The position numbers and the translations under genes are program-made. From Gemmatimonadota bacterium (GTDB lineage Bacteria; JAAXHH01), in the NCBI GenBank assembly GCA_009838645.1, contig VXRC01000024.1:82494-146493 (forward strand): DNA of 64,000 nt, written 5' to 3'. This document shows, piece after piece, positions 21,213-25,906 of this stretch (position 1 is the stretch's first letter; each line of letters begins with the position of its first letter). The notes below the pieces were generated by a model, which was given only the letters and a program-made list of their open reading frames with translations, ran no database searches and was not told the DNA's origin.

Positions 21213-22382
21213 TCACGCCGCGGTCGGCGCATCCAGACCGCTTCCGGTCTCCTCGACCACGAGATCCACCACGGCCCGCAGGGCTTCCTCTTCGGTGTCT
21301 CCTTCGAGGCGGCGCAACCTGTAGTGATCGATCTGCCGGTCCGACCCGGTGCCGTACCGGATGAGGTCGAGAATGTGGCGCAGTTGGTCCTCGCACTCCA
21401 TGGCGCGCGCGTCATCGGACAGTGTTTCGACCAGGGCTTCGGCGTACTCGTCGATATCGAGCCGGCCCGATCCCTCCGTATCCCCCAGGAAGGCCACCAC
21501 GCCGTACCGCTGGGCGAGCCAGCAGTTCTCCTTAATCAGTTCCGTCGGCGGTTCCGGCGGAAGGCGGCCTTCCATGTCCAGGCGAAGCAGATACCGAACG
21601 AGACAGGTGTAAAGCGCCACCACGCACATGGCGTCGTCCACGGTCTGGCAGATGTCGCAGATCCGCAGTTCAAGGGTGGGGAAAGCCCGGGACGGCCGGA
21701 TGTCCCACCAGAGCTCGCTGCTGTCCTGGATGAACTCCATCCGCTGGAAGTCTTCCACCAGTTTCTCGAATTCCTCCCAGGAGTGCAGCGGCCCGGGCAG
21801 CCCTGTGCGCGGCATGCTGCCGAAGAGGGTCAGGCGGTAGGATTTGAAGCCGGTCTCCCGCCCGCTGCTGAATGGCGAGGATGCCGAGAGCGCGTGGAGC
21901 AGCGGCAGGTAGCGGCGCATGGCCGTCATCACCCGGACGCGGCTGCCGCCGTCGCCGAAACCCGCGTGGATGTGCATCCCGCCCACGAGCAGTTCCCGGA
22001 CGGCCTGCTGGTAGGTCATGGCGAACTGTTCGTAGCGACGCCCCGCCGTGACGACCTGGTTGTGCCAGGCCGCGAAGGGATGGGTGGAGGCGGCCAGCAC
22101 CGCGGCGCCGTGCTGCGTAGCCGCGTCGATGACGAGGCGGCGGGTCTCGATGAGGGCCGAATGGACGTCCGCCACGGACGTGCAGACCCGGGTGGTGGTT
22201 TCGATCTGGGACCGGAGGAACTCGGCCACGACCTTGTGTTCCCCGCGGTTTTCGTTACAATACTCGAAGATCCGTGGATCGGGGTCGGGCAGCAGGTCGC
22301 GCGTATCCGGGTCGACCAGGAAGAACTCTTCCTCGACGCCGAGGGTGATGGAGAGGGGATCTGCGGTGCTGCCTTTTGCCAT
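21213..22382 (-). CDS. YbdK-type carboxylate-amine ligase (glutamate-cysteine ligase 2 family)
   Basis: A 389-residue ATP-dependent ligase of the GCS2/YbdK family. LSITLGVEEEFFLVDPDTRDLLP is the family's opening strand with the metal-binding glutamates, and LLVGGMHIHAGFGD, SSPFSSGRETGFKSYR and LELRICDICQTVDDA are its later motifs. E. coli YbdK has weak gamma-glutamylcysteine ligase activity; relatives act on other carboxylates and amines, so the substrate is open. The ATG at 22382 is preceded by GGAGGAACC, which fixes the start; the longer frame beginning at 22439 overlaps the next gene. The C-terminal helices (RQIDHYRLRRLEGDTEEEAL) are usual. Confidence 0.87.
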   Translation of the reverse strand: MAKGSTADPLSITLGVEEEFFLVDPDTRDLLPDPDPRIFEYCNENRGEHKVVAEFLRSQIETTTRVCTSVADVHSALIETRRLVIDAATQHGAAVLAASTHPFAAWHNQVVTAGRRYEQFAMTYQQAVRELLVGGMHIHAGFGDGGSRVRVMTAMRRYLPLLHALSASSPFSSGRETGFKSYRLTLFGSMPRTGLPGPLHSWEEFEKLVEDFQRMEFIQDSSELWWDIRPSRAFPTLELRICDICQTVDDAMCVVALYTCLVRYLLRLDMEGRLPPEPPTELIKENCWLAQRYGVVAFLGDTEGSGRLDIDEYAEALVETLSDDARAMECEDQLRHILDLIRYGTGSDRQIDHYRLRRLEGDTEEEALRAVVDLVVEETGSGLDAPTAA

Positions 22383-22435
22383 GGTTCCTCCCGGGCTGGA
22401 TTCCGGGGAGATTTTACATGGCGGGCAAGACATAG

Positions 22436-22657
22436 TCAACCTGTATCGAGTAACGCGTTCCGGACCTCTTGCCAGTCCATGGTGCTGTCTGCGGGGTCTT
22501 GCAGACGCTCGTCGGCCAGGTTGAAATCTTCAACGTCTTCTACGTAACGCTGAAGTGCCCGGCGAATCAGGGTTGATCGGCTTGTATCGAGTTCCGCGGC
22601 GGCCCTGTCCAGTGCTTCGAGGAGGCTGTCCGGTACCCAGACTGAGATTTTAACCAT
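22436..22657 (-). CDS. Orphan ribbon-helix-helix (CopG-like) protein
   Basis: A 73-residue DNA-binding protein: MVKISVWVPDSLLEALDRAAAELDTSRSTLIRRALQRYVED is a complete ribbon-helix-helix domain with strand, two helices and the S-R-S-T-L-I turn. The acidic tail resembles an antitoxin toxin-binding segment. No toxin gene follows; the next gene downstream is the ligase. The ATG at 22657 has GGAAACCG just upstream. A decayed TA locus starts 183 bases away on the other strand, so this may be a surviving antitoxin or a solitary repressor. Confidence 0.75.
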   Translation of the reverse strand: MVKISVWVPDSLLEALDRAAAELDTSRSTLIRRALQRYVEDVEDFNLADERLQDPADSTMDWQEVRNALLDTG

Positions 22658-22778: not shown

Positions 22779-22807
22779 TTGACACTTCATGACTTATGGG
22801 CTAACTT
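22779..22807 (+). promoter_or_regulatory. Sigma-70-type promoter before the decayed TA locus
   Basis: TTGACA at 22779-22784, a 17-base spacer, and TAACTT at 22802-22807. It would drive the remnant at 22841 with a leader of about 30 bases. The consensus -35 box survives although the gene behind it is broken. Confidence 0.5.
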
Positions 22808-22840: not shown

Positions 22841-23198
22841 ATGTCAAATAAGACTCCTAATGAACGTCCCCTAGACGATGAATCCTCTACGACGAAAGAT
22901 CGAGCCTACTGGCTGAGCAGGACGTCTGAAGAACGCCTCGCTGAAGTTCAACGTCTGCGTCGTCAAGTATATGGAGACAAACTCGACGACCCCATACAAC
23001 ACGTTGCTCGGATCGTCAGGCGAACCTCAAGAGGAGTTGTTGAAATTCGAAATTTACCGTCAAAGTCCTCGACATCAGACGCGACAAGCTCGATAAGACC
23101 AACTCATCAAGAACAAGCGGGCAACGGGGAGGCACCGGGACCTGGCAGACCTGGAGATGCTTGAAGTTGAGAAACGTAATTCAATAAAGGAAACCACC
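22841..23198 (+). pseudogene. Decayed NTase-type toxin-antitoxin locus spread over three frames
   Basis: The first part (frame of ATG 22841) encodes DRAYWLSRTSEERLAEVQRLRRQVYGD then IQHVARIVRR, the pattern of small partner proteins encoded before AbiEii/MNT-like nucleotidyltransferases. From about 23050 another frame gives KFTVKVLDIRRDKL, and from 23103 a third gives LIKNKRATGRHRDLADLEMLE, the usual C-terminal end of those nucleotidyltransferases. The middle of the NTase, including its GSx10DxD site, is missing. So a two-gene locus has collapsed by an internal deletion and at least one frameshift. The 107-codon frame that runs 22841-23164 is therefore not a natural protein. The third frame reads on into the next gene's start. 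Confidence 0.65.
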
Positions 23199-23762
23199 AT
23201 GCGACGTTTATTCTTCCTGCTGGCGATGCCCTGTATGCTGGCGATGCCCTTTCTGACGGCCGGCAAAGCCCAAGCCCAGGTTTCACTTGAAATCGAGGGG
23301 CATGCGTCTTTCGCCCTGGAAGAACTGAGCAGGCTGGCGGACGGACAGGGGGTCGGTGGATTAGTGACGGCTGTCTATCCGGTCCGGCCTTCGAGTATGT
23401 TCAACATCATCGGCAAGGTTGGATTCAATCATTATGGTACCAAGTCGGGTGAGGTTGAACGAGGCATATCCGTGAGGTTCGTCGACTCGGTGTACCAGGG
23501 CATTCCGATCACCGCGGGCGGCAGGCTGTATTACGATCAGGACCGGCTATTCTACACCGAAGGACATATGGGCCTGGAGATCAAGCGGGGCGACCTGGAC
23601 CCCTTCGACGATAATGACCAGACTTTAACGATCCATCCAGTGCTGGCGATAGGCGCCGGATACTCCGTCTCCCAGAGACTGGCCTTGATTGCATCGCTCG
23701 GCTTGAGCAGTGATCTGTGGAGATATGCGAATCTGGGGGTATCGATTCGATTGAGGGATTGA
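23199..23762 (+). CDS. Exported beta-barrel-like protein of unknown function
   Basis: A 187-residue protein with a signal peptide (MRRLFFLLAMPCMLAMPFLTAGKAQA, cleavage after AQA). The rest alternates polar and aliphatic residues (MFNIIGKVGFNHYG, IPITAGGRLYYDQDRLFYTEGHMGLEIKRGD, LTIHPVLAIGAGYSVSQRLALIASLGLS), as in small outer-membrane barrels. The ATG at 23199 has AAAGGAAA upstream. Codons before it belong to the TA remnant. No specific family was recognised. A terminator shared with dnaK follows. Confidence 0.7.
   Translation: MRRLFFLLAMPCMLAMPFLTAGKAQAQVSLEIEGHASFALEELSRLADGQGVGGLVTAVYPVRPSSMFNIIGKVGFNHYGTKSGEVERGISVRFVDSVYQGIPITAGGRLYYDQDRLFYTEGHMGLEIKRGDLDPFDDNDQTLTIHPVLAIGAGYSVSQRLALIASLGLSSDLWRYANLGVSIRLRD

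Positions 23763-23929: not shown

Positions 23930-25906
<1,977 letters not shown>

Follow-up and report, generated by a model that had tools for sequence, protein, structure and literature searches.

What did the short open reading frame (ORF) at positions 22841-23164 of this stretch derive from, and what do its remains tell about the genes that once stood there? The stretch, referred to here as the window, comprises 64,000 nucleotides of contig C24 of the 3.8-Mb genome of a Gemmatimonadota bacterium (G000 in our set). The initial annotation, made from the sequence alone, regarded the locus as a small partner gene followed by a nucleotidyltransferase (NTase) gene, collapsed into three reading frames with loss of the NTase core. 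The collapse and the core deletion are confirmed, as intact copies occupy the same site in four sister genomes. Our results suggest that the locus is a decayed module of a partner and an NTase resembling the Mycobacterium tuberculosis toxin MenT1, and that the intact form is most likely a toxin-antitoxin pair of the MenAT1 sort; we put the probability of this reading at roughly 0.78.

The broken copy in the window

The 107-codon ORF begins, on the forward strand, with a partner-type segment of about 64 residues (22841-23032, 64 codons), the putative antitoxin, which was identified by a partner profile (49.1 bits, E 4.3e-14) and by alignment to intact alleles. In a six-frame search of the window (1885 peptides) this was the sole significant match to that profile. 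The sole six-frame match to the NTase profile was the frame-0 segment DQLIKNKRATGRHRDLADLEMLEVE at 23097-23171 on the same strand, which covers profile positions 120-144 of 146 (22.5 bits, E 8.5e-6). Both segments had been assigned in this way at the outset, and both assignments hold. The partner profile was built from 30 sequences, one of them from this genus (G006), and the NTase profile from 66, none from this genus. Over 26 residues the NTase remnant shares 85% identity with the intact enzyme of the sister genome G007, and over 64 bases its tail DNA is 97% identical to that of G007; the remnant still carries the lysine equivalent to K132 of the intact enzymes. These C-terminal positions are all that is left of the NTase, and the window copy is not a complete toxin with a catalytic core. 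That short peptides in three frames resemble such genes by chance can hardly be true. The frame-1 peptide of the locus is indeed within chance in a profile search, but two profile matches adjoin each other, and neither the rest of the window nor its reversed copy yields a further significant match (the reversed copy gives no NTase match, and one partner match at E 0.72). This refutes the explanation for the partner and for frame 0, and the intact alleles at the same site speak against it as well.

We infer an order of events in which a deletion or rearrangement removed the catalytic core of the NTase (VGG...PRFTGDLD), leaving its last ~25 residues in another frame, and the partner frame lost its stop and ran into the debris. 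As it stands, the partner frame lacks its usual stop and runs on to 23164, a read-through extension (23033-23164) completing the 107-residue ORF. The core is replaced by a junction at 23041-23096, also on the forward strand, the left end of which is approximate. It contains the frame-1 peptide VKVLDIRRDKL (23059-23091), which had been proposed as a third piece of the NTase and, together with the frame-0 segment, was expected to match NTase C termini. Frame 0 does so strongly and frame 1 does not: the surroundings of the peptide scored -0.5 bits in hmmsearch, a value reached by 1020 of 3000 shuffles. When it was placed without gaps at a fixed position just before LIKNK, it ranked first of 136 positions and was equalled by 3 of 5000 shuffles; the peptide had been picked beforehand, and its match to the NTase strand preceding LIKNK is suggestive at best. 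Of the proposed three-frame collapse the partner and the frame-0 segment thus stand, whereas the middle is no simple frameshifted NTase, about 55 nucleotides having taken the place of the core. For the junction, visual inspection raised the idea of a short duplication (GACAAGCTC/GACCAACTC), which was not established.

Intact and broken alleles in sister genomes

The DNA of the locus was matched in nine of the 12 genomes of the genus. An intact partner and NTase stand at this site in G003, G006, G007 and G011, and the core-deleted form of the window is found in G000 itself and in G002. G001 has a different internal deletion together with a partner frameshift, G004 has the partner alone with the NTase gone, and in G009 the whole pair is gone, leaving nothing between promoter and next gene. 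As for the other genomes, the downstream gene is closely matched in G010, where no pair lies within the 239 bases available before that gene, and is without a close match in G005 and G008. In G003 and G006 (L026, L028) the DNA immediately before the pair could not be aligned with the other genomes, and the whole intergenic site seems to turn over. Besides its broken copy at this locus, G002 carries a second, distant NTase (G002:C36:28500-28934, L039) that is 36% identical, has an open frame and has a partner match of its own.

The partner of the window is 82% identical to that of G002 and 46-61% identical to those of the other matching members of the genus. The helix part of the partner is as distant from G004 as from the intact alleles, at a synonymous-difference proportion of ~0.8 (measured over 23 codons against the intact alleles), and the C-terminal part of the partner is closer to G004 (synonymous difference 0.33) than to the intact alleles (0.68-0.81). 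The NTase tail, by contrast, nearly matches the intact alleles. In a tree of the joined flanking DNA G002 grouped with G007 (0.99), G001 with G004 (1.0) and, weakly, G000 with G009 (0.22); in the dnaK-like half of the flank alone G007 grouped with G009 (0.90). G000 and G002 are probably not sister genomes, since the flank tree places G002 with G007. The two are nevertheless nearly identical within the locus, at 118 of 119 bases in the partner helix part, 69 of 73 in the junction and 64 of 68 in the C-terminal remnant, compared with 50 of 64 before the tract and 428 of 559 in the next gene (77-78%). Because identity is high inside the tract and low in its flanks, which put G002 with G007, the tract likely reflects recent recombination.

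The intact module and its predicted fold

For a wider sample, genome contigs were scanned with an NTase alignment (A2), and the best 80 of 87 relatives, from records of many phyla, were kept. Forty-six of these 80 NTases have the partner motif just upstream by pattern, and among the remaining 34 the partner profile scored above 8 bits in 26, some weakly; the last eight comprise two loci with a partner-like ORF (L164, L170), one without upstream DNA (L128) and five without a partner. All 17 reference loci have the partner in frame +2, its stop falling 38-44 nucleotides after position 1 of the NTase profile. In 27 of 29 further loci, for which our search table listed no partner, the partner stop falls 32-44 nucleotides after NTase position 1; in the other two it extends to +110 (L311) or the frame is too short (L292). 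The intact pair is found widely, as a module whose two genes overlap in a constant +2 geometry. As exceptions to this pairing, the NTases L292, L159, L160 and L161, of at least 140 bits, are without a usable upstream partner ORF.

The model of the intact NTase (predicted local distance difference test, pLDDT, 87.5) has a Pol-beta-like NTase fold near MenT, and its best solved match by Z is MenT1 (8rr5; Z 13.2, root-mean-square deviation 2.9, 131 aligned of 149 residues, VIA-align). Foldseek matched it to 8an5_B at E 6.8e-5, and a profile comparison matched it to MenT1 8an4 at E 2.7e-6. The GG...DxD metal site and the catalytic lysine are present in the intact alleles, G27, R38 F39 T40 G41 D42 L43 D44 and K132 being invariant in 18 sequences. 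The MenT1 residues T39, D41 and K137, named in excerpts of PMC10435456 and PMC11375011, fall on T40, D42 and K132 here, by our reading of an alignment whose numbering is one below that of the paper.

The known system most like this one is MenAT1 of M. tuberculosis (Rv0078B-Rv0078A), in which a single-domain NTase likewise follows a small upstream partner that has no recognised DNA-binding domain (68 residues in MenAT1, ~62-64 in our pair), PRFT-x-D-x-D being common to both NTases. According to passages of PMC10435456, 15 of 21 menA1 genes lie upstream of a menT-like gene and the resolved part of MenA1 consists of two helices; the model of our partner also consists of two helices (pLDDT 77), but a sequence comparison detected no relation between the two partners. 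In contrast to MenAT1, the copy in the window is broken, and identity between the NTases is 18% in the structural alignment. AbiEi/AbiEii and MenA3/MenT3 belong to the same NTase superfamily, and 16 of 18 of our NTases match the AbiEii model of Pfam at E<=0.1 (best 8.9e-6). Unlike in the type IV system AbiE, however, the partner is of ~64 residues and has no COG5340/AbiEi-type two-domain match in Pfam, and PADLOC gave nothing for the one partner scanned, that of G006. For this same partner PHROGs also gave nothing, and Pfam and NCBIfam gave no match at the curated cut-off. Across 14 partners no Pfam family was common to two, and seven unrelated families each matched one (best E 9.8e-4). The G007 NTase has no match at the curated cut-off in Pfam or NCBIfam, and its weak matches are to AbiEii in PADLOC (E 0.039) and to a PHROG of unknown function (E 0.11). 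Among the 18 NTases the best member matches DUF6036 in Pfam at E 2.5e-8, and NCBIfam gave one match (E 0.076). No paper was recognised as describing this pair among the literature matches listed, which is no proof of absence, and none was found for the term DUF6036.

By analogy with MenAT1, the intact NTase may add nucleotides to RNA, perhaps to tRNA 3' ends, and so stop growth, while the small helical partner, encoded first on what would be a shared transcript and overlapping the start of the toxin gene, would bind and block it.

The NTase is lost far more often than its partner

In 384 genomes the partner profile (A4, E<=1e-5) found 57 places and the NTase profile (A3) found 63 NTases of at least 140 bits, a count that excludes the weaker, partner-paired NTases of G342 and G070; G278, at a contig end, was left out, so 62 of the 63 were assessed. 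Thirty-five of the partner places have an adjacent NTase in the table and 22 do not. Conversely, 33 of the 63 NTases have a partner in the table and 28 of 29 further ones have a partner ORF, giving 61 of 62; the broad partner profile alone gave E<0.01 at 17 of these 29 loci. The single NTase without a partner ORF is that of G217 (L292, G217:C2:608946-609371).

The 22 losses are spread over 15 families and take several forms. Eleven keep a C-terminal piece of the NTase with the core gone or cut (G000, G002, G001, G057, G191, G114:C3, G202:C22, G128:C66, G265, G090 and G021). G021 retains NTase positions 1-38 and 91-141 and so keeps the DxD; the other forms that keep the C-terminal lobe have lost the DxD segment. 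Nine have no C-terminal piece, seven of them with nothing or a part overlapping the partner (G004, G103, G320, G128:C25, G054, G270 and G114:C96) and two, G039:C91 and G241, with the first 32 and 38 NTase positions. In the remaining two (G369:C20 and G101:C68) both genes are broken. One further NTase, at G039:C92:41561-41926 (L036, L206), lacks its first ~20 residues and has an abnormal partner end, possibly a case of early decay. By sign test the asymmetry of 22 losses against 1 gives p 5.7e-6, and a lower count of 17 against 1 gives p 1.4e-4. G000 and G002 probably share a loss event, as do G128:C66 and G265; with shared events counted once the test is 20 against 1 (p 2.1e-5), the places not being fully independent.

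Given this marked imbalance in losses and the predicted MenT1-like fold, we consider the NTase to be the probable toxin, repeatedly lost, and the partner the probable antitoxin. In principle the polarity could be reversed, with the NTase as antitoxin and the small partner as toxin, as in the type VII system MNT-HEPN, which according to an excerpt of PMC2701414 is also a mobile two-gene pair with an NTase and in which the NTase MntA neutralises the HEPN toxin (PMC7641770). The partner of our pair, however, has ~62 residues and two predicted helices, and no HEPN family was among the Pfam matches of 14 partners at E<=1. Where the NTase is missing or broken, 19 of 22 loci retain a partner frame that is open up to its conserved end, contrary to what one would expect if an antitoxin were being lost, and the toxin MenT1 is among the two closest folds. 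We therefore regard a reversed polarity as very improbable. Decay of this sort resembles that of ccdO157 in E. coli, a chromosomal toxin-antitoxin pair decaying within the species (PMC7167474 and PMC2654758, citing Mine et al. 2009), although that pair is of another family and the loss of the NTase core described here recurs in genomes of 15 families.

Several observations weigh against a MenAT1-like toxin-antitoxin pair. The fold is not exclusive to MenT, as TM1012, whose function is unknown, tied with MenT1 (Z 12.3) and came top in Foldseek, and the antibiotic adenylyltransferases ANT(2'') and LnuA match at Z 9.8-10.2; because these also match, the fold does not fix the substrate. In a sequence comparison the partner profile gave no match to MenA1 (the antitoxin chains of 8an5) at E<=5. 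Among the 79 assessable NTases of the best 80 of 87, five are without a partner ORF (L159, L160, L161 and the distant L175 and L176). The partner itself is broken in 3 of the 22 losses (G001, G101:C68 and G369:C20), and the partner and NTase searches were unequal in sensitivity and depth, the 140-bit limit having been set afterwards. In the window, the unexplained ~55-nucleotide junction in place of the core had no relative beyond G000 and G002 in a DNA search of 16 genomes of the phylum. Some of these points would suit an NTase that modifies small molecules or RNA with the aid of a helper protein, the enzyme being simply dispensable and no toxin-antitoxin pair being involved. The fold matches to ANT(2'') and LnuA, the matches of 11 of 18 members to Pfam Aminoglyc_resit at E<=0.1 and the few NTases without a partner ORF are consistent with this. 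A dispensable enzyme does not, however, predict that the partner frame stays open while the enzyme goes, and a patchy two-gene occurrence across many phyla would be usual for toxin-antitoxin pairs. On balance we consider a dispensable enzyme unlikely.

Are the core-deleted forms genes in their own right?

The right-hand NTase pieces left after deletion begin at profile positions 91-132. Mechanism or selection could not be separated from ascertainment as a source of this clustering, because an NTase with most of its core intact is itself counted as a match. It is conceivable, if rather unlikely, that forms with the partner and the C-terminal lobe serve as a stand-alone antidote, an anti-addiction gene against incoming active copies that arose through repeated independent loss of the core. 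If so, it would exist in some lineages as an in-frame fusion of partner and C-terminal lobe (G265, G090) or as a mini-protein of N and C terminus (G191, G021). In L272 (G265) and L268 (G090) the partner is fused in frame to the C-terminal motif of the NTase in one short ORF, the related G128:C66 copy (L271) being frameshifted, and in L277 (G191) and L269 (G021) the NTase N terminus is joined in frame to the C terminus, giving mini-NTase frames without the full core. Selection for the retained lobe was considered and found unsupported, as the G000 and G002 tails differ by eight nonsynonymous and no synonymous changes and the G128:C66 copy, which is related to the G265 fusion, carries a frameshift.

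A related possibility is that a real, selected product, such as a stand-alone antitoxin with a rebuilt C terminus, is encoded by the 107-residue ORF or in some other frame of the debris. The ORF is uninterrupted in G000 as well as in G002, and the near-identity of the partner helix part in the two genomes exceeds that of the flanks. In the reading frame of the NTase remnant, the 324 bases of the ORF yield a ratio of 0.38, with 12 nonsynonymous and 10 synonymous differences (p 0.02, one-sided and without correction for the three frames). In its own frame, however, the ORF has 20 nonsynonymous and 2 synonymous differences, where ~5 of 22 synonymous would be expected from site counts (p 0.06), and codons 62-107 have 8 and 0. 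Purifying selection is evident in the intact NTases, for which all 6 pairs gave dN/dS 0.07-0.19. The pattern in the remnant frame is taken as leftover or chance because a stop lies in that frame just before the C-terminal piece, and the identity tract would be explained more simply by recent recombination, the joined flanks placing G002 with G007. A selected product is thus quite improbable. The initial annotation had expected a false 107-residue hypothetical protein to be called here; the ORF is present, and its sequence shows no sign of protein-level constraint in its own frame.

Promoter, downstream gene and neighbours

The sigma-70-like promoter that was said to remain upstream of the locus is indeed there, with TTGACA and TAACTT 17 bases apart at 22779-22807 on the forward strand. 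Among the nine genus loci printed the TTGACA box is kept in all, including G009, from which the pair is gone, and it is followed after 17 bases by TAACTT in six and by TAATTT or TAAATT in three. This promoter stands upstream of both the pair and the next gene, and the deletion in G009 joins the promoter region to the latter. The downstream gene (23199-23762, forward strand, 187 residues) is probably served by, and in need of, the same promoter. It has a signal-peptide-like N terminus by eye and a weak match to an outer-membrane beta-barrel family (PF13505, E 0.0022, under its cut-off), and a close copy (53-100% identity) is present in 10 of the 12 genus genomes, in nine of them at this site. 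The NTase tail, lacking its own stop, shares the frame of this gene, and the downstream ORF could therefore be started at the ATG at 23157 instead of that at 23199, a possible false N-terminal extension of 14 codons (23157-23201). The ORF at 22841-23164 and this extended start could both mislead automatic annotation.

Outside the pair, a gene on the reverse strand at 22436-22657 encodes a ribbon-helix-helix protein (RHH_1, E 1e-9, over its cut-off). By eye no toxin gene lies beside it, and its last ~24 residues alone match in G002 and G007; it may be a second orphan antitoxin-like gene decaying next door. From their translations by eye we take the further neighbours to be DnaK (23930-25906) and a glutamate-cysteine-ligase-like gene (21213-22439).

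Implications

Toxin-antitoxin decay of this kind is already known and is ordinary by itself. The small partner of this widespread pair found no family of its own among the databases searched (Pfam with 14 members; NCBIfam, PHROGs and PADLOC with one). The broken alleles amount to a natural genetic test, and they point to the NTase as the toxin of a widespread pair.
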